Assembly: GCA_021108435.1 (NCBI GenBank)
Contig: JAIOQY010000084.1
Location: 1-35,478, forward strand
Reading direction: 5' to 3'
From: Candidatus Aegiribacteria sp.
Lineage (GTDB): Bacteria > Fermentibacterota > Fermentibacteria > Fermentibacterales > JCC-6
Length of the DNA stretch: 35,478 nucleotides
The notes beneath the pieces are model-generated. The model had not been told where the DNA came from. It did not search any database and was given only the letters and a program-made list of their open reading frames with translations. A program made the position numbers and the translations under genes. Positions 26,356 through 35,341 of this stretch are shown here, piece by piece. How positions within the stretch are numbered: position 1 is the first letter of the stretch; each line of letters begins with the position of its first letter.

Positions 26356-27906
26356 CTAATTTCTTGTATGAATGCACAAGTTCGAATCCTGTTTGGGGTA
26401 CCAGACAGAATGCACAGCAGAAATATCACTACTTACAGCACCGGAAGATTTCCAAGCAATATTCGTATTGTAAAGTAAGTCAAAGGGATACTGCAATGAG
26501 GGTTTGATGGTTCCTTCATTTAAGATACAGTTCGATAATAGGTTTTCAAGGAATGGTTTCTTTTCATTGTTTGGTGCCTTAACAAACAGTCTGCCAGCAC
26601 TTTGATTGAGTTCTAAGATTCCTCTTGCGGTACTAAGAGGATCATGTATTGCAGAAGCTTCAAGGAAAGAAAGCTTCTCATTAATTACATCAAGTTCTCT
26701 TCTTATCTCTGCATCCTTCTGATCAAAACGTATCACAGTAATTCTTCCATCCAGCCTATCGTCATACAACACCTCTGAACGTCTCTGAAGTCTCTCACGC
26801 TGAGATGCAAGCCTTACCCGTGCTTCTTCAAGGGTTTTGCGTTCATCTATTGTTTCAGCTTCCAACCATTCAATAAGCAGATCAATTATTCCTTCGTCTA
26901 TTCTCAAAGTTCTAAGGAATGCTGAGAACTGAAGATCAAGTTTCACTTCTCTTACAGATGGCTCTCCATGGTGCCAGCCTTTGTGTCCGGTGCAGTGGTA
27001 GTAAGTGTATTTGCTCTTCTTGCGCTCCGCTGTAATCGCACACCCACAATGACCGCATTTCATTAAGCCGGTATATGCAAATACATATGACTGCTTCCGC
27101 TTCTCTACAGACCGCTCACCAAGCATATCATGTACATTGAACCACAATGAAGCGCTTACAATGGGTTTATGCTTACCATCGTACTCTATGCTGTTCCATA
27201 AGAACTTACCTCTGTATACTGGATTTCTAAGCATCATGTGTATATTGGAATTGCTTACCTTGTTACCTTTTTTCGAACGCAACCCTATTGAGAACAGTTC
27301 AGATGCAATTGTACTTATGGAAACATTGCCTTCAGCATATCTCTCATACATATGCTTTACAAGCGGAGCATTTACAGGATCAGGTACAATGATCTTCACA
27401 CCGCTTGCATTAACGGTGTTTATGTATCCTAGAGGTGCTACAGAAGGATAAAGACCTGCTTCAGCCTTTGCTTTCATGCCTTTTTTAGCTTCAGCACTGA
27501 TGTTACGGCTTAAGTACGCTGCTTGAGCTATTTCAATGTCCTGCATGAAGTGATCAGTAGGAGATGAATCACGTGACATTACCTTGCCTTCACGAACGAA
27601 ATGTATCTCAATACCGGTCTTTTCAATGTCCAGTGCAAGGTAATCAGCCATGTTTCGTGTAAGACGGTCTGTTTTCTCAACGAGAATCACATTGCATTCA
27701 CTATGTTTGTCAATATATGAAAGCATGGTGTTAAAGCCGGTTCGTCCGGTACTCCGCGCAGTTTCAGTGTCAATGTACTCATGTACAACAGTAAAACCAT
27801 GTTGTGCAGCATATGAACGTAGCATTTTAAGCTGCGCTTGTATCGAAAAGCCTTCTTTTTCCTGTTCCACTGTTGAAACACGTGCGTAAATGCACGCGTG
27901 ACGCAT
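26356..27906 (-). CDS. Large serine recombinase (integrase)
   Basis: This 516-residue protein is a site-specific recombinase that integrates and excises elements through a Ser-DNA intermediate. The N-terminal resolvase domain has 'YARVSTVEQ' (catalytic Ser about 11) and conserved Arg. The recombinase domain follows (about 160-260, 'PLGY', 'NPVYRGKFLWN'), then a zinc ribbon ('KCGHCGC ... YYHC') and a coiled coil near 370-420. The start is ATG 27906, five bases after GGGGGG; an ATG 18 bases upstream lacks an SD. The last ~15 codons ('YPKQDSNLCIHTRN') read antisense through a tRNA 3'-end fragment, as expected if the attachment site overlaps the gene end. Confidence 0.93.
   Translation of the reverse strand: MRHACIYARVSTVEQEKEGFSIQAQLKMLRSYAAQHGFTVVHEYIDTETARSTGRTGFNTMLSYIDKHSECNVILVEKTDRLTRNMADYLALDIEKTGIEIHFVREGKVMSRDSSPTDHFMQDIEIAQAAYLSRNISAEAKKGMKAKAEAGLYPSVAPLGYINTVNASGVKIIVPDPVNAPLVKHMYERYAEGNVSISTIASELFSIGLRSKKGNKVSNSNIHMMLRNPVYRGKFLWNSIEYDGKHKPIVSASLWFNVHDMLGERSVEKRKQSYVFAYTGLMKCGHCGCAITAERKKSKYTYYHCTGHKGWHHGEPSVREVKLDLQFSAFLRTLRIDEGIIDLLIEWLEAETIDERKTLEEARVRLASQRERLQRRSEVLYDDRLDGRITVIRFDQKDAEIRRELDVINEKLSFLEASAIHDPLSTARGILELNQSAGRLFVKAPNNEKKPFLENLLSNCILNEGTIKPSLQYPFDLLYNTNIAWKSSGAVSSDISAVHSVWYPKQDSNLCIHTRN
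26376..26403 (+). other. tRNA 3'-end fragment, probable attachment site
   Basis: ACAAG (26376-26380), GTTCGAATC-type T-loop, CCTGT, a 7-base acceptor strand, discriminator A and CCA follow the exact spacing of a tRNA 3' end. The T-stem has one A-C mismatch. No matching 5' half (such as ACCCCAA) lies upstream within tRNA distance, so it is a fragment, not a gene. It overlaps the 3' end of the recombinase gene. Confidence 0.65.
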
Positions 27907-28035
27907 GTTACCCCCCTTGTTCATGTGTATGTTTCCTTTCTGTAAGGCATATGTGTTTTATAGTGAATTGTATGTAATCCCGTAAACACTGCTTACAACC
28001 AATATGTAAAGCATATGTAATCTGTATTTTTCGCA

Positions 28036-28422
28036 ATGGGAATAACATGCTGTAAAGCTTGTTCTCAAGGGTGTTACAGCATGAAAACATATACAGTTGA
28101 ATGGGAAGAGCATTTACAAGGTATGTATTTATGCATTTCACATAGTAAATACTATGGTTTTTCAATGTGCATAACATGCTGTAAAACTCGTTCTCAAGGA
28201 CGTTACCGCATGAAAACATATACAGTTCAATGGGAAGATCATTTACAAGGTTTGCTTTTATGCATTTCACATAGTAAATATTATGGTTTTTCAATGTGCA
28301 TAACATGCCGTAAAACTCGTTCTCAAGGACATTACCGCATGAAAACATATACAGTTGAATGGGAAAAGCATTTTCAATGTATGTTTTTACCCGTTTCGCA
28401 TGGTGATCAGTATTTATTCTGC
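28036..28422. repeat. Three 129-bp tandem repeats with internal dyads
   Basis: Units start at 28036, 28165 and 28294. Units 1 and 2 are close copies; unit 3 diverges in its last third. Each has a ~10-bp inverted repeat with an 18-nt loop (unit 1: CATGCTGTAA at 28046-28055, TTACAGCATG at 28074-28083, perfect) and units 1 and 2 have a second dyad (unit 1: CATAGTA-AA-TACTATG at 28141-28156). Both strands are open across the array, but changes between units fall mostly at first codon positions in the plus frame and show no protein-type bias. A structured, possibly binding or replication region fits better than a gene. The whole gap 27907-28448 has no other gene I can support. Confidence 0.85.
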
Positions 28423-28448
28423 ACGGAAATACACAGTGCGGAGATAGA

Positions 28449-29810
28449 TTAAGCAGCATTGTCAATCTCCTCTATATTGGTGTCTTCCGTTTCAACTGAT
28501 TTGTGTCCCCGATAATCGACATTACCACTTGTTGTTATAGGGTCATTTCGATTATCGGGGATACAAACAGGTTCTTCAGGAGGGTGTGTAAAAGAATCAA
28601 CATACTCTCTTGTTTTATCTGAAAGCCAGAATTCGTTTTCAGTTCGTCCTTGACCGAAAGAACAGTCAAGAACCTTAACAGAATATAGATCACTCGCAAT
28701 TCTCTCATTGGTTCGTTGAGGTAGTCTTGTTATTAACCGTAATTCATTCAGAGTGAAATAGTGATTCTCAGCTGCTTTCTCACGCAGATAGATGGCTTCA
28801 AGTATCTGAGAACGCTGTTCTGGTATGGTATCTAAGGCTACTCTTACAACAGTCTGCCATGCTTCCGCAAGAGAGCATCCTATAGCAATACAACCGCAGA
28901 AAAGACCGTATAGCTGTTTTGCAAGCCTTGCATAGCCTTCAGTGGCATGTATGAACTGAATATCTCTACTATAGCTTGAACGCTCTACAGGAGTCCTACA
29001 GTCTGCAACAAAAGCCGTCAAAGGAGTAATGTAATCATGAATGTAACTCAAGGATTTCATTTGCAGATCAGAATCAGGTTCAAAATCCTGAAATAGCTGT
29101 CCTGCGAGTTCCTGCATTTCCGCTCTTATTTGCTGTTCCTTACCTGATGATCTAAGAGCAGTGCGAGCTTGAACCATCCTCAGATCATCGTTGTTGTAAA
29201 CTCGAATAGTGAGGAATCGGTCTCCCATGACACTGAAAGCGGAACGGTGCTTCTCAATTTCTGAGGTTACAGCTGCAAGAACCCCCAGTCTTCCATGCCA
29301 TTCTTTATGTGTGCCGCCATCATTTCCGAAGTATCTGATAAAGTCACCGTCATAAATTTCTCTAAAAGCACTGAATACTTCAGCAGCAACATCTGGATGT
29401 TTTGAGAGAAGTGATGTCATATCCTTGAAGATTATAAAGCCGAAGTCACCGAACTTCTTAAGGAGTCCTCCTGTTGCACCCTTAACTTTGTCCTTCTTTG
29501 AAGTACCGGAAAGAAGAGAGCTTTTGGTCAGATCACTTACTACTTCCGTGTCGGGAAGATTGTACATTGAACCGAGTATTTCAGTTTTACCGCTTGAAGG
29601 CGGTGCAACCATCATCATCCAGAGAGGGACTTGCTTCAAGTAGTTTGCTGCATATGTGGCAAGAGCAACTCTTACCGGTAAGAGATCTGACAAGGTTAAT
29701 AGTTCAGAAACCTTGTTTTCTATCTCTAGCAGCTTTACCCTTCTATAAGGAAAGCGTATAAAGGAATTCACCGGAGATTCCGGCTTGAAAGTAAGTATTT
29801 CAGCAAGCAT
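28449..29810 (-). CDS. AAA+-like ATPase with C-terminal winged helix
   Basis: The 453-residue protein has Walker A 'APPSSGKT' (69-76), a Walker B-like 'FIIFKDM' (125-131), 'EIYDGDFIRYFG' (151-162), 'AAVTSEIE' as sensor-like region (179-186) and 'GDRFLTIR' (197-204) with a possible Arg finger. Near 340-400 there is a winged helix ('TLNELRLITRLPQRTNERI'). This pattern is found in phage and plasmid ATPases of the replication-helicase type; I infer a role in element replication or maintenance. The tail is acidic. The ATG overlaps the upstream 66-aa gene by 11 bases and follows a GGAGAG SD. Confidence 0.75.
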   Translation of the reverse strand: MLAEILTFKPESPVNSFIRFPYRRVKLLEIENKVSELLTLSDLLPVRVALATYAANYLKQVPLWMMMVAPPSSGKTEILGSMYNLPDTEVVSDLTKSSLLSGTSKKDKVKGATGGLLKKFGDFGFIIFKDMTSLLSKHPDVAAEVFSAFREIYDGDFIRYFGNDGGTHKEWHGRLGVLAAVTSEIEKHRSAFSVMGDRFLTIRVYNNDDLRMVQARTALRSSGKEQQIRAEMQELAGQLFQDFEPDSDLQMKSLSYIHDYITPLTAFVADCRTPVERSSYSRDIQFIHATEGYARLAKQLYGLFCGCIAIGCSLAEAWQTVVRVALDTIPEQRSQILEAIYLREKAAENHYFTLNELRLITRLPQRTNERIASDLYSVKVLDCSFGQGRTENEFWLSDKTREYVDSFTHPPEEPVCIPDNRNDPITTSGNVDYRGHKSVETEDTNIEEIDNAA

Positions 29811-30000
29811 CCTTATACTCTCCTTCCTTCACAGGGAGAGCAGCAGTAGCAGCTTGCTTCTCATTCTCTGAGTGCCATTTGGCAAGCCATCTGAAGTGTA
29901 TTGAAAGCCTTTTCATGGCTACTCTGACTTGTTCTGCGGAAAGTTTGACATTGTAGCATTTCTTAAAGTGCGTTTGGGTTCTTTCTAATAGGTTTTGCAT
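29800..30000 (-). CDS. Small basic helical protein of the element
   Basis: This 66-residue protein, rich in Lys, Arg and His, is not a family I recognise. Its middle ('LSAEQVRVAMKRLSIHFRWLAKW') is helical and amphipathic, which could bind nucleic acid or the ATPase. Its start lies inside a 44-codon gene and its end overlaps the ATPase start, so the three appear translationally coupled. SD AAGGAAGAG lies ten bases upstream of the ATG. Confidence 0.65.
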   Translation of the reverse strand: MQNLLERTQTHFKKCYNVKLSAEQVRVAMKRLSIHFRWLAKWHSENEKQAATAALPVKEGEYKDAC

Positions 30001-30097
30001 GATTGCTTCTCTTCCTTACCCTGGCTTCCTGCTCTAAGCACGGCTCAGGGCGCACTAACTCATTGATCAGCGCAATTGTGATAAAATTTATTCTCAT
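29963..30097 (-). CDS. 44-residue small protein with strong ribosome-binding site
   Basis: ATG at 30095-30097 is preceded by AAAGGAGGAAATTAA, the best Shine-Dalgarno in the element. It encodes 44 residues: a hydrophobic N-terminus ('MRINFITIALINELV') and a basic C-terminus ('RVRKRSNHAKPIRKNP'), ending in TAA at 29963. It overlaps the next gene's start by 38 bases. It may be a real small protein or a leader for coupled translation of the next gene. Confidence 0.55.
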   Translation of the reverse strand: MRINFITIALINELVRPEPCLEQEARVRKRSNHAKPIRKNPNAL

Positions 30098-30137
30098 TTA
30101 ATTTCCTCCTTTTGCATTTGCATTGTTCATTAACAAC

Positions 30138-30416
30138 TCATCCAATATTGTGTATGAGTGCCTTCATTTCCTTTATCGCAGAAATGAGGGAAAGAGGGGG
30201 AACACTGCCTTCACCGTTATAGTAAGCCAGAATGTCACTATTTCTTTCCGGCTTATCTCCAAACTTGAAGATGGTTCGGTTTCCAGACTTACCAAGTCCT
30301 GCAAGCAAATATCCTGTAGATTTCAGGAAGCTTGCCAGATAGAAGTCTGTGGTTTCGTACTCCGGTGGAGACTCTTTGTTAAAGTTCTCTTCTGCATTAT
30401 GTGGGTGCTGAGTCAT
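30138..30416 (-). CDS. Small element protein, DUF5659-like
   Basis: The 92-residue protein has 'TTDFYLASFLKSTGYLLAGL' (about 22-41) and 'RTIFKFGDKP', a pattern I associate with DUF5659-type small proteins of mobile elements, with limited certainty. The function is unknown. The AAAGGAG SD is well placed before the ATG. It lies between the XRE repressor and the small-protein/ATPase genes, 37 bases after the repressor. Confidence 0.6.
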   Translation of the reverse strand: MTQHPHNAEENFNKESPPEYETTDFYLASFLKSTGYLLAGLGKSGNRTIFKFGDKPERNSDILAYYNGEGSVPPLSLISAIKEMKALIHNIG

Positions 30417-30453
30417 AGTTCAACTCCTTTCATAAAAAAAGGTTAATTGTTCT

Positions 30454-30963
30454 CTATCCAATGATATCATTCTCCCAACTGTCCATTAGATCACGAATAT
30501 GGTTGATCACTCCGAGTTGCTTCTCAGAGGGAAGCTTTTCAGCTTCTTTCCTGAGTTCAAGCATTAATTCCTTCCATTCATTCTTAGATATATCTTCTTT
30601 GTCATGTTCACCCTTTAACACAGCTATGAGAAGCATTATGATAACTGTTACTCCAAGCAAATCTCCCATTTTGTCAAATCCTCTTACAGCTTCAGACATC
30701 TTTTCAGGGTGCTTCTTTACTGCATTCATTACATCTGAAGAGATTTTTCCTGAAAGAGAGAGCATGTAGTCCCTGTTACCGCCTAAAGTATCGGCGATGG
30801 CTACTATTTTCTCCTCTGATGGAGGTTTAAAGAGACCTCGTTCAATACGAGATATGTACCCAGAGCCAAGACCGACAATTTCACCAAGCTTGCGCTGGCT
30901 GATGCCTTTAGCCAATCTAAGTCTCTTCATTTCCCGTCCAAAACGTCGATCACTAAGAATCAT
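30454..30963 (-). CDS. XRE-family repressor
   Basis: The 169-residue protein has an N-terminal HTH of the Cro/CI type (about 10-62; 'SQRKLGEIVGLGSGYISRIERG', key part 'GYISRIERGLFKPPS') and a C-terminal helical part with a hydrophobic stretch (about 104-118). The RBS AAAGGA precedes the ATG. A strong promoter lies directly upstream, with a palindrome centred on its -10 box, so it probably represses itself and likely the leftward genes. It is a good candidate for the element's lysogeny-type switch. Confidence 0.88.
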   Translation of the reverse strand: MILSDRRFGREMKRLRLAKGISQRKLGEIVGLGSGYISRIERGLFKPPSEEKIVAIADTLGGNRDYMLSLSGKISSDVMNAVKKHPEKMSEAVRGFDKMGDLLGVTVIIMLLIAVLKGEHDKEDISKNEWKELMLELRKEAEKLPSEKQLGVINHIRDLMDSWENDIIG

Positions 30964-30987
30964 TTAAATCCTTTCTGCATTGCTGAC

Positions 30988-31007
30988 TGCTGATGTATAA
31001 CTCAGCA
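30988..31007 (-). promoter_or_regulatory. Palindromic operator on the repressor's -10 box
   Basis: TGCTGA and TCAGCA arms are separated by eight bases, which contain the -10 box. The half-sites match perfectly. Binding here would block RNA polymerase. A further TGCTGA at 30981 may be a partial extra half-site. Confidence 0.7.
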
Positions 31008-31022
31008 CCAAATCATTGTCAA
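30994..31022 (-). promoter_or_regulatory. Sigma-70-type promoter of the XRE repressor
   Basis: On the minus strand TTGACA (31017-31022) and TATACA (30994-30999) are separated by 17 bases. The -35 is a perfect consensus and the -10 differs by one base. Transcription would start near 30987, about 24 bases before the ATG. Confidence 0.8.
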
Positions 31023-31087
31023 GCCAACTACTCAGTTAATGTGTGATATTCATCTAAATTAGACGATCTGATTTGGGAAGCTAACGA

Positions 31088-33556
31088 TTAAATACCTTTA
31101 GGTTCATCAGTTGAGAAGCGAAGTGTATACTCAAAAAGAGTTTGCGCATCCATTAATGTTCTATCAACTTTTCGACGTATGTTGTCGCTCAACAATGATG
31201 ATGGAAATAGAGTCCATAACTGTGATAAGTAATTAGCAGGATATACAATTGCATTAGATGATATTGCAGAATCAAGACCAGGATTGATGGGATAATGCCT
31301 TAGAATGTCTTCAAGTTTGGTTCTTAATTGTGTATGCAAACCAGTTATTTCAAGCCATGAACTTAGGAGGAGTAAATATCCTAAAAGAATTCTTGGGTAC
31401 TCTTGTGAATTTGCAGCTCGTATATTGGAGTATACTTCGATGATCATCTCGCCAAAGGTACATAGAACGACATCTACAAAGCAACTATTCCTTTCAGTCC
31501 TGAATACAAGTCCAAGAGCAGGAATCGCCATTAGATTCTCGTATTCTGTTAACCAATAACAATCGTTGTCAGGTTCGATTAGGATTTTTGAAGATCGAAC
31601 TGCTAATTCTCGGAAGAATACTCGGAAATATCTAGTAACAGATTCAATCCAATCATGGGTAACACCAATTCTATCATCGATCGAAAGAGTATTGATCCAG
31701 AAAAGAATTGCAATTGCTTTGGACAAATGTGACCATTGTAGTGAGTCTTGATATATGCCGTTGCAAGTAGTCAGAAGTGAATAAACACTGTGGATTTGTG
31801 AAATTTCATCTCTCGCATGAGCTAATGCATACTGAATACTCTCTGGTGAGTTTGGCCTACCTTGTTCATGTAACAGAGAGCTTGTTCTTTCAATTCCATC
31901 AGGTCCAATTTTGCACATACTAACTAGATAGCATTCAAGGAGGTGATCTTGATTAAGTACTGGGTGAATAAGGGGTGGAAAAGGCTCAATAATGACATTA
32001 CAGGGATAATTGTTGAGTTTAACCTTCATAATTGAGCATACTATATCTAACCAATTTCCAATAAATTTTGATTTCAAATGGCCATACTCGATAATATGCA
32101 TGCAGTACTCACGAAACACTCTATTCAAAGCTTCAAGTACAGTATTCATCAATGCAGTATGCCAGTGACTATTGGAGTAAGCGCAGGCTAATCCTATTGA
32201 TTCTAAATGCTTTAGCATTGTGAACTGAACAGAACGTACACGTCCAAGTTTCAACGATTCATTACATACTAAACCTATCGCTAGTACTGCCTTGCTTGTG
32301 GATGCTGTATTTTTTAACCCCAATGTCCAAATCGCGATATGCTCGAGTATCATCAACCAAGGTTCTACTAGGCTGATATTGTTTAGAGTTTCTATTTCGA
32401 TTGATCTACATACATTTAGTGTAATGTTCTTCACACTATCAGTTAAACATTCTAAATACTTTTCCTTGGTCGAATTGGTGCATTCATTAATTAGTTTAAG
32501 GATCTCACTTGTGAGAAAGAGATTAAATTGATCTAAGAAGTTGGTATAGCTACCTCTGAGGAAAAAGTACTTGTATGAGTACTTTGATAATTGATCAAGG
32601 GTAAATGATACATTAGCTACAGTATCTGCTTCTATTCCACGTCTAATAACAACAAGAAGAGGTTCTACTGCCTTAATCGCTTCAAGATAACACATATCTG
32701 GTAGCTGATTCCCTATTACAAAGGATAATGGTTGTGAATAGAAGCCCAGAATATGTGATCTGAATACATGATTGAACCTAGAACCACCAAATATAACATC
32801 AGGTGTATGTAAGTTGAATTTCTTTTTCAGTATAGATTCAGACCGATACCGATATAGTAGCAGCAAGGAAGATTGTTCAGATAATTTGAATGCATATACT
32901 GCATAAGCTATCACTGATATAAATAATATTGCTACAAGTAACAGGGAGAATACAATAAAGCTTGTGTGACCTAGACTGAAGAAAGGTGAGACGACAGCAC
33001 ATAGGAAAATGGCTATAAGAAGCATCCATATTGCTTTAGTTATTCTAGAGAGTGCATTCTTCGCGATTATTTCAGGAACTATTTGAGCAACTCGATTCTG
33101 CACAAATGCTGTTGCTGCAAATGTCATTGGGATAAACATTCCAAGGAAAGACAATAAAACGGATAGTGTTAACATAGTACCTGGAGTGATTTTCTTAGGT
33201 AGAAATCCCGCAAGATGACTCAAATACGTAGGCAAGAGCACAAATCCAATACAGACTAAAAAGAACACAAACCAGAAAGGCATTCCTGGACTACGTGGGA
33301 ACCTCTCACAAAAATCCTTAGTCTTTCTTAAAACTAAATACATTACGTTCACTATTTTCTTAATTGCTCTGATTCTTAAGGCTGGTATAAACGAACAGAT
33401 GATTGGAACCATCATTATAGCAATAGTTAGTATCCTGCTTAATTCGATGAGAGACAGGACATAACCAATAGCAACAGAAGAAATAGTTGCAGATAGGTAT
33501 AAAATTGCGCTTGGGAGCAATGCAAAAGGATTTATATACTGAAAGTCTAAATTCAT
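31088..33556 (-). CDS. Large membrane protein, 6 TM helices plus long soluble domain
   Basis: I do not recognise a family in this 822-residue protein. Six hydrophobic helices are near 11-36, 41-60, 93-112, 127-150, 175-193 and 199-222. The remaining ~590 residues are helical, Leu- and Ile-rich, with no Walker, nuclease, protease or other motif I can find. By the positive-inside rule the basic loop at 61-90 and the 'YRYRSESILKKKF' segment after the last helix suggest a cytoplasmic soluble domain. Codon and base use is more A+T-rich than in the chromosome. Its ATG overlaps the stop of a 2-TM gene (33553), so the two are coupled. It is probably cargo; a defence or superinfection role is only a guess. 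Confidence 0.8.
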   Translation of the reverse strand: MNLDFQYINPFALLPSAILYLSATISSVAIGYVLSLIELSRILTIAIMMVPIICSFIPALRIRAIKKIVNVMYLVLRKTKDFCERFPRSPGMPFWFVFFLVCIGFVLLPTYLSHLAGFLPKKITPGTMLTLSVLLSFLGMFIPMTFAATAFVQNRVAQIVPEIIAKNALSRITKAIWMLLIAIFLCAVVSPFFSLGHTSFIVFSLLLVAILFISVIAYAVYAFKLSEQSSLLLLYRYRSESILKKKFNLHTPDVIFGGSRFNHVFRSHILGFYSQPLSFVIGNQLPDMCYLEAIKAVEPLLVVIRRGIEADTVANVSFTLDQLSKYSYKYFFLRGSYTNFLDQFNLFLTSEILKLINECTNSTKEKYLECLTDSVKNITLNVCRSIEIETLNNISLVEPWLMILEHIAIWTLGLKNTASTSKAVLAIGLVCNESLKLGRVRSVQFTMLKHLESIGLACAYSNSHWHTALMNTVLEALNRVFREYCMHIIEYGHLKSKFIGNWLDIVCSIMKVKLNNYPCNVIIEPFPPLIHPVLNQDHLLECYLVSMCKIGPDGIERTSSLLHEQGRPNSPESIQYALAHARDEISQIHSVYSLLTTCNGIYQDSLQWSHLSKAIAILFWINTLSIDDRIGVTHDWIESVTRYFRVFFRELAVRSSKILIEPDNDCYWLTEYENLMAIPALGLVFRTERNSCFVDVVLCTFGEMIIEVYSNIRAANSQEYPRILLGYLLLLSSWLEITGLHTQLRTKLEDILRHYPINPGLDSAISSNAIVYPANYLSQLWTLFPSSLLSDNIRRKVDRTLMDAQTLFEYTLRFSTDEPKGI

Positions 33557-33876
33557 TCAGAAATTTCTGATTCAGTCTTCTTCATTAACGTAGTTATAAA
33601 GCTAGATGAATTTCTGTATATGCTGATAAGAGCTCTAATAAGAATAAGGAATATGAATACTATTAATAATAAGCCTACAAATAGTTGGCCTTGCATTACG
33701 AGAGGAGTATCAGTCTGCATAAATATTGAGAGACTAAGTGTCATATGATCTGAAGAGCTAGTCTCATTAAATAGCCCGATCAATAGAAGAATGAGAAAAA
33801 CCACTCCGCAAGCAAGAATCACTGCAAGTATCTGAATGATCATATTCACAATGATGCGAAAAATTATCTTAAACAT
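33553..33876 (-). CDS. Small 2-TM membrane protein partnered with the 822-aa protein
   Basis: The 107-residue protein has two long hydrophobic helices (about 10-36 and 63-85), a polar loop between them, and a charged C-terminus. The loop ('NETSSSDHMTLSLSIFMQTDTP') would face outside if both ends are inside. Its stop overlaps the 822-residue protein's ATG by four bases. I infer a two-protein membrane complex. No clear Shine-Dalgarno precedes the ATG. No family recognised. Confidence 0.75.
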   Translation of the reverse strand: MFKIIFRIIVNMIIQILAVILACGVVFLILLLIGLFNETSSSDHMTLSLSIFMQTDTPLVMQGQLFVGLLLIVFIFLILIRALISIYRNSSSFITTLMKKTESEISE

Positions 33877-34064
33877 AATCTATACTTACATACTATAGCA
33901 CATATTGAACTCATCCATACTACTCCATGCATTATCAGGTTCAAGAATCTATTCATTGTTAAAATAATCTAATACATGTAATAATCATCATGCTTCAGCT
34001 GTTTGTCCATACTACATGAAAAAGCATTTTGTGATAGTACGTAATACAATGCTTCAATTTTACA
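33877..34064. other. A+T-rich gap upstream of the membrane pair
   Basis: This stretch should hold the promoter of the 107-aa/822-aa pair, but I see no convincing -35/-10 pair, only TATAGT close to the start. No gene or clear repeat is visible. Confidence 0.35.
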
Positions 34065-34298
34065 TCAATATAGAGGCACATAGATATCATATTGAATCCG
34101 TTTAGGATTAATGAGACCTAGCACTCTGTGAACCGTGACTTCATCATAGTGACCTCTTGTCTTGAATTTACCAGAAAGTCTCATCCTTACAAGTGTCCTC
34201 CAAAGGTGGAAGCTTACATGATACTCATAGGCTTTCAACCTCTCCGCATTAATAGACTGAAGCATATTCGGATTCTGGAGAAGGAACCAGAGTTCCAA
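34065..34298 (-). CDS. Possible small protein of 77 residues
   Basis: A TTG-started frame encodes 77 residues with a charged C-terminal half ('RGHYDEVTVHRVLGLINP'). The start overlaps the 29-nt repeat at 34292-34320 and has only a weak GGAT upstream. It could be a real small gene or the end of a decayed one. An opposing 126-codon frame overlaps it. I have little confidence in either. Confidence 0.3.
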   Translation of the reverse strand: MELWFLLQNPNMLQSINAERLKAYEYHVSFHLWRTLVRMRLSGKFKTRGHYDEVTVHRVLGLINPKRIQYDIYVPLY

Positions 34299-34320
34299 GA
34301 GTATCCACTACGGGGTGCCA
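34292..34320 (+). repeat. Isolated 29-nt GTTC...GGGGTGCCA repeat
   Basis: This copy differs at three of 29 positions from the copy at 35155-35183. It lies about 860 bases from the main cluster, in the gap between the 77- and 179-residue frames. It ends like a tRNA 3' end but is five bases too long between GTTC and CCA to be one. Confidence 0.6.
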
Positions 34321-34368
34321 TAGAAGGGAATGTAGAATGTAGAATCATTGTGGAATATTCTCTGGAGT

Positions 34369-34908
34369 TTATTCTTGCTTCTCAATTTCGTGCCGAGCTT
34401 CTCTTTCTAATTGACGTTGTATTATGCCGATATCCTGAATGTTATAAACAGCGATTTCTTTCTTACAATCTTCGCAATAGTAATAATCATAAGGTTGTCT
34501 ACCTCTAATGTGTCGAGTACATGTAATCAATTCTAGATCACAATCCGGACAAAATGGGCCATATATTAATGGCAAAGAATTACTAAAGGTATATCTCCAC
34601 TGTAGCCCTTTTTTATCTTTGACTAATCTGCGTTTCATATTCCCTACTGTTACTTCGCGATCCTTCTTCGATGAAAAGTAATGAAAGCATTTTCTATAAA
34701 GAGAGATAGTAGCTAGAATTAAGAGTAGAGCAATCAGACTTAGTGGAAGTGAGATTTCGAATACAGCTAGGTGATATATATCTAAGATAGCATTCAAAAC
34801 AGAATCCCATCCAATTCTGAAAGCCGATTTCAATAGAATTAGTATCACACCTGATCCAATTGAAATGAACCAAGGATTTTTGTGTAGTTTTAAATGCTTG
34901 ATCCTCAT
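34369..34908 (-). CDS. 2-TM protein with C-terminal zinc ribbon
   Basis: The 179-residue protein has two hydrophobic helices (about 12-27 and 49-71), a basic linker and a probable zinc ribbon made of 'CPDC' (120-123) and 'CEDC' (145-148). A Cys at 130 lies between. The C-terminal ~20 residues are highly charged. I do not know the family. The zinc ribbon probably faces the cytoplasm and binds protein or nucleic acid. AGGAT lies nine bases before the ATG. The gene is the right-most intact one of the element. Confidence 0.75.
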   Translation of the reverse strand: MRIKHLKLHKNPWFISIGSGVILILLKSAFRIGWDSVLNAILDIYHLAVFEISLPLSLIALLLILATISLYRKCFHYFSSKKDREVTVGNMKRRLVKDKKGLQWRYTFSNSLPLIYGPFCPDCDLELITCTRHIRGRQPYDYYYCEDCKKEIAVYNIQDIGIIQRQLEREARHEIEKQE

Positions 34909-35341
34909 TTATCGAAAATCCTGTTCTTTGCTCATTATTCAGAACGAAGTAAACTAGTTTCGATAACATATGAGATACTTAACTAATTAGTGAGTGTTAA
35001 GAAAAAAAGCATCTGGATAAGAGAATGTACGGTGCTACCTATTCAAACACTGTGCAAAGTATAACCATTCTTCGTTATCAATCATTTTTTGCATAGTAAA
35101 AACAATATCACTTTGAAGAGATAGTTCTAAATGCAATTACTACTAGGTACCAAAGTTCTAAGAGTGTCCACTACGGGGTACCAGATTTCAGGATTTAGAA
35201 CTCATCCCCATCTATTGCAGCAGTTCGAAATACCTCCACCAGGGGGTACCAATAATCAGAGTTTAGAACTCATTTCCAGCCTTGGCAGCAGTTCAAAATA
35301 CCTCCACTACGAGGTACCATATAATCCTGTAAAGAATGCTT
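34909..35341. other. Gene-free right-hand region with repeats
   Basis: This 433-base stretch holds the leader of the 2-TM zinc-ribbon gene (left part) and the 29-nt/68-bp repeats (35124-35330). I see no supported gene. Two short plus-strand frames in it have no ribosome-binding site. Confidence 0.5.
35124..35330 (+). repeat. 68-bp tandem repeats containing a 29-nt core
   Basis: GTTC-N3...-GGTACCA cores of 29 nt begin at 35124, 35155, 35223 and 35291. The last three are at exact 68-base spacing; two full units (35155-35222, 35223-35290) and a partial third are present. In the third and fourth cores TACCTCC/GGGGGTA and TACCTC/GAGGTA form hairpins, and the first full unit has GTTCTAA/TTAGAAC arms. 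The cores resemble the tRNA fragment at 26376-26403 and share GGGGTACCAGA with it. They could be attachment or recombinase-binding sites. Confidence 0.75.

Follow-up and report, generated by a model that had tools for sequence, protein, structure and literature searches.

A two-gene membrane protein cargo on a serine recombinase element with tRNA-tail-like repeats in Fermentibacterota and its possible role in phage defense

The window analyzed here, which is the entire 35,478-nucleotide contig C84 of a 2.92-Mb Candidatus Aegiribacteria genome, contains a mobile element of ~7.9 kb (positions 26379 to 34320) that carries as its cargo an overlapping pair of genes for membrane proteins of 107 and 822 amino acids (aa). 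The cargo status of the pair is secure. As to its function, we give close to an even chance to the reading that it is the cargo operon of an element resembling the staphylococcal cassette chromosome (SCC) and that its two products would act as one inner-membrane complex protecting the host from phages.

Two overlapping genes for membrane proteins

Both genes are encoded on the reverse strand, that of the 107-aa protein at 33553 to 33876 and that of the 822-aa protein at 31088 to 33556. They share a 4-nt overlap, ATGA, at 33553 to 33556, in which the stop of the former meets the start of the latter. At the local composition, an open frame of 822 codons has a chance probability of ~1e-27. Hydropathy analysis places two transmembrane (TM) helices in the 107-aa protein (residues 16 to 34 and 66 to 84), with an acidic loop between them, and six in residues 18 to 217 of the 822-aa protein (18 to 36, 42 to 60, 94 to 112, 128 to 146, 175 to 193, and 199 to 217), followed by ~605 residues. 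Thus, the overlapping pair and the 2-TM and 6-TM topologies, all of which had been proposed from the sequence-only reading, are borne out exactly. The long helical domain that it had also ascribed to the large protein stands as far as the length of the region beyond the TM segments is concerned; its helical fold appears solely in a single-sequence AlphaFold model, which is all-alpha in this part at very low confidence (pLDDT 41). This model was left out of the fold searches on account of that score. Positive charges in loops 61 to 93 and 147 to 174 lead us to predict that the ~605-residue remainder is cytosolic. The expectation that the pair would be A+T-rich relative to the host was also confirmed, the GC content being 32.7% in the 107-aa gene and 36.2% in the 822-aa gene, as against ~46% in host genes; the element core, at 41 to 42%, is likewise less A+T-rich than the pair, as expected of cargo that is swapped.

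Profile and sequence searches returned no match at a useful E value, which supports the earlier impression that no known family is involved. Neither protein had a meaningful match in profile searches of Pfam, NCBIfam, PHROGs, or PADLOC (best E values with the PADLOC models, 0.037 and 0.1), and the 822-aa protein had none among the PDB sequences. Relatives of the 822-aa protein were absent from 41 other genomes of the phylum and from phages and plasmids, and no close relative was found in viral or genome contigs, in scans sensitive to close relatives only; those of the 107-aa protein were absent from the same 41 genomes. BLASTP comparisons of the pair with the cargos of sister elements gave chance-level matches only. 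The check proposed for the two genes, co-occurrence elsewhere, gave no support: the pair was not found together in any collection searched (beyond the phylum, close relatives only), and as these collections contained no homolog of it, co-occurrence could not be shown.

The mobile element and its core genes

The left end of the element is marked by a site resembling the 3' end of a tRNA (AGTTCGAATCCTGTTTGGGGTACCA; 26379 to 26403, forward strand), and a similar site occurs at the left end of sister elements. The core genes, all on the reverse strand, encode a large serine recombinase with matches to the Resolvase, Recombinase, and Zn_ribbon_recom profiles (26356 to 27924), a P-loop AAA+ ATPase with an MCM/Cch-like fold in its AF2 model (pLDDT 75; 28449 to 29810), a 92-aa DUF5659 protein that is kept in sister elements (30138 to 30416), and an Xre/cI-type HTH repressor with one TM segment at residues 98 to 116 (30454 to 30963). 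The pair is situated past the repressor gene and shares its strand. We propose that the right end of the element is the first tRNA-tail-like repeat past the cargo (34291 to 34320, reverse strand). No copy of this repeat occurs in the interval between the pair and the repressor (30964 to 31087), so we rejected the possibility that the pair is a separate cassette and counted it as part of the recombinase element. The recombinase gene does not stop at the left attachment site; its 3' end (26356 to 26403) extends beyond this site into the host sequence, and hence the last residues of the protein depend on the place of insertion.

The best NCBIfam matches of the recombinase are CcrB (5e-33) and XisF and CcrA (2e-21); its score against the CcrB model, 114 bits with a cut-off of 900, marks it as related to this family and not as an equivalog. 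Homologs of it were recovered in 17 genomes, this one included, and those of the ATPase in G031, G032, G029, and G011. Foldseek searches with the ATPase model recovered MCM proteins and the SCCmec Cch structure (5dgk) with E values of 4e-6 to 2e-4 (5dgk, 2.4e-4), at low TM-scores of 0.32 to 0.40 by query length. Of three sister elements compared, two keep the TM segment of the repressor (L041, 2493 to 3023; L042, 8132 to 8728), the L044 homolog being devoid of it. Among named organisms, Candidatus Sabulitectum MAGs have the closest relatives of the element core, which places the genome in the Fermentibacterota. An Rfam search of the element gave no match. Between the ATPase and the recombinase, a 185-aa ORF contains three tandem 129-nt repeats (28029 to 28415); by analogy with the cch2-ccrC interval of SCC elements, which has repeats (PMC7581432), these might possibly constitute a replication origin.

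Presence and absence among close relatives

Comparison with close relatives showed that the region from 26.4 to 35.2 kb is present in some and absent from others. G015 is colinear with the window at 86 to 87% identity up to position 26386, and colinearity resumes at 35223 and lasts until the contig ends; the intervening 648 bp of G015 carry HicA and HicB genes. The site is empty in G024, which has ~70 bp there, and in G018, where the insertion is missing along with the gene that precedes it. The last 55 bases of the contig (35424 to 35478) are identical to the last 55 bases of contig C96 (L010, 8241 to 8295), forming an assembly-graph overlap; from this overlap and from the sequence of the relatives, which runs on into C96, we conclude that C96 is the true right neighbor of C84.

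A recurrent gene order unites the sister elements: recombinase, small gene, ATPase, small genes, and HTH repressor; the more distant of them lack some of these core genes. At the left end, nearly all have a 24- to 25-nt copy of a tRNA 3' end (AGTTCGAATCC..GGGGTACCA), and the element sequences agree after this site and differ before it. The site is the 3' end of a real tRNA-Arg gene in G011, G009, and G030 and a tRNA-like site elsewhere. While the core genes are conserved among the sister elements, the cargo beyond the repressor is different each time. Together with the empty and HicAB-filled sites described above, this swapping gives good support to the assignment of the pair, already made from its position beyond the repressor, to the cargo of an element. 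It also bears on the idea that the element itself is what the pair serves, for instance by aiding transfer, excluding entry, or causing addiction. Transfer and entry exclusion commonly involve membrane proteins, and this element's repressor is also membrane anchored. Sister elements have the core but not the pair, however, indicating that the pair is not needed for movement, and neither a toxin nor a relaxase signature is seen in it. We consider such a role highly unlikely.

Cargo of sister elements and array cassettes

Recognized defense genes occupy the cargo slot in two of the six elements with visible cargo: Upx (E = 3e-152), accompanied by a RES-domain gene and DUF6338, in L102, and two ThsB (Thoeris-type) TIR genes (best E = 1.7e-19) in L099. 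The remaining visible sister cargos have no recognized function; these comprise a 3-TM protein with a 462-aa partner (L041), proteins of 306, 409 (TM), and 239 aa (zinc ribbon) (L042), and proteins of 239 (2 TM), 258, 101 (DUF3892), and 240 aa (L044). Cassettes that stand between repeats include AbiEi/AbiEii (L015), HicAB (L021), and an NYN/HEC-09 protein (L042). The pair's own element contains no known defense gene, such genes being present in the sister elements and cassettes (Upx, ThsB, AbiE, HicAB, and the KAP NTPase described below).

The array cassettes of the phylum also include many secreted or surface proteins without a link to defense, which is consistent with the pair being instead a membrane transport or stress-response system that aids the host in its habitat and has no anti-phage role. 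Against this, neither protein has an ATPase, substrate-binding, or transporter motif, and we regard this explanation as unlikely.

A tRNA-tail-like repeat and one-way cassette arrays

To the right of the cargo, there is a 30-bp repeat (AGTTCNAAAAGTGTCCACTACGGGGTACCA) that resembles a tRNA tail with a few extra bases. After the copy at the proposed right end, three further copies follow at 35154, 35222, and 35290, 68 bp apart (35154 to 35319, reverse strand). In the 19 loci examined, we counted 72 copies, with every copy within a locus on one strand and spacings of either 31 to 133 bp or 0.56 to 5.6 kb; the shuffled control gave none. Strictly one-way cassette arrays formed by the repeat were noted at 34291 to 35319 of the window and at L011 to L024, L042, L044 to L046, L105, and L106. 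The repeat is present in 28 of the 42 genomes of the phylum, all from one family, the reversed pattern giving zero, and none was found in viral contigs. In G018 (L097), the left end of a recombinase element remnant abuts the repeat directly, in place of the tRNA form, and this junction ties the repeat to the recombinase.

We tried and rejected integron attC sites as an identity for the repeats: single-strand folding did not exceed chance in five of six tests, and no IntI gene is nearby in this genome, so the repeat does not look like attC. This genome encodes two IntI-like integrases above the TIGR02249 cut-off (C30, 1314 to 2258, and C178, 443 to 1360; L033 and L034), and half of the genomes of the phylum carry IntI-like genes. 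No tRNA-tail repeat was found near either of the two (20 kb at C30 and 15.8 kb at C178).

Between the repeats of the window, a separate cassette (34369 to 34908, reverse strand) encodes a 179-aa protein with two TM segments and a zinc ribbon, with homologs in the array regions of G032 and G012. Proteins of this 2-TM and zinc-ribbon type form a mobile family (34369 to 34908 of the window; L105, 7352 to 7924; L020, 5047 to 5673), of which none was found in plasmids. The G012 homolog adjoins a KAP NTPase matching the defense candidate PDC-S49 (E = 7e-188). In open-access papers we did not find such elements or arrays described from this phylum, and the repeat array may be more novel than the pair itself.

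Comparison with known systems

SCC cassettes stand in series between direct repeats, and some of them are without a recombinase. The present element recalls SCC in having (i) a large serine recombinase whose nearest named family is CcrB, as a distant relative; (ii) an adjoining gene for an MCM/Cch-like ATPase, a likeness seen at low TM-scores; (iii) variable cargo bounded by direct repeats; and (iv) an att site at a gene's 3' end, with cassettes in series separated by direct repeats, some of these cassettes lacking a recombinase. In SCC elements (CcrAB or CcrC with Cch or Cch2), too, an MCM-like helicase is found beside Ccr (PMC7581432). The element appears to resemble SCC in its mechanism. 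Unlike SCC, which uses a single site at the rlmH 3' end, it uses tRNA-Arg and many tRNA-tail-like repeats; it also has one recombinase gene scoring far below the Ccr cut-offs and a membrane-anchored repressor, and many of the cassettes are single genes. Because of the multiple sites and the distant relationship of the recombinase, we do not file the element as SCC.

The arrays are comparable to those of integrons in that short gene cassettes, toxin-antitoxin genes among them, are arranged one way with a repeated site. In contrast to integrons, the repeats have no attC core sequences along with the lack of folding noted above, the two IntI-like genes of this genome have no adjacent array, and the repeat is joined to the end of a serine recombinase's element. 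The pair itself is like the membrane-associated anti-phage systems covered by PADLOC in that membrane proteins stand in a slot where relatives carry defense genes but differs from them in that neither protein matches a PADLOC model.

Proposed function of the pair

The searches returned neither a homolog nor a domain match for either protein and the AlphaFold model was unusable, so the proposed function is read from the position of the pair. Because relatives carry defense genes both in this slot and on this platform, we regard defense as the best single guess. The Ccr-like serine recombinase would insert the non-conjugative element, with either the 3' end of a tRNA or a tRNA-tail-like repeat as the site; the MCM/Cch-like helicase probably copies the element while it is excised, and the membrane-anchored HTH repressor would keep it silent. 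Most likely, the 107-aa and 822-aa proteins assemble into one inner-membrane complex, in which the large cytosolic helical part of the latter may sense infection; the 6-TM part and the 2-TM partner might then either break the membrane barrier, resulting in abortive infection, or block DNA entry.

The sequence-only reading had suggested defense or superinfection exclusion. The defense genes in the slot of two of six elements and the AbiE, HicAB, and NYN cassettes lend this suggestion indirect support, and the lack of homologs of the pair in every collection searched weighs against it. Under superinfection exclusion in the narrow sense, the pair would block related phages or elements at the surface or during DNA injection without killing the cell. 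In favor of this, the 107-aa protein, with two TM helices and short loops, is similar in size and topology to small exclusion proteins, of which T4 Imm is an example. Its 822-aa partner, with a large cytosolic domain, points rather to an intracellular sensor, and the PADLOC and profile searches showed no homology of the pair to any exclusion protein, making this variant quite unlikely. Returning to an inner-membrane complex that protects the host, we hold as doubtful the more inclusive proposal that the two genes make up a membrane anti-phage system belonging to an undescribed family and that the SCC-like element carrying them builds one-way cassette arrays, within one Fermentibacterota family, by mimicking tRNA 3' ends.

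Significance

If the pair does protect against phages, it would add an unrecognized membrane system from an uncultured phylum. The combination of cargo slot and repeat offers a simple rule for finding more such systems, namely, to look between the repressor and the first repeat, and this rule is usable in genomes without a cultivated model. The repeat arrays further bear on how cassette collections can be formed without integron integrases: if our reading is true, a serine recombinase would drive such an array as a platform for collecting cassettes, one that differs from integrons as well as from SCC and is rich in toxin-antitoxin and defense genes.
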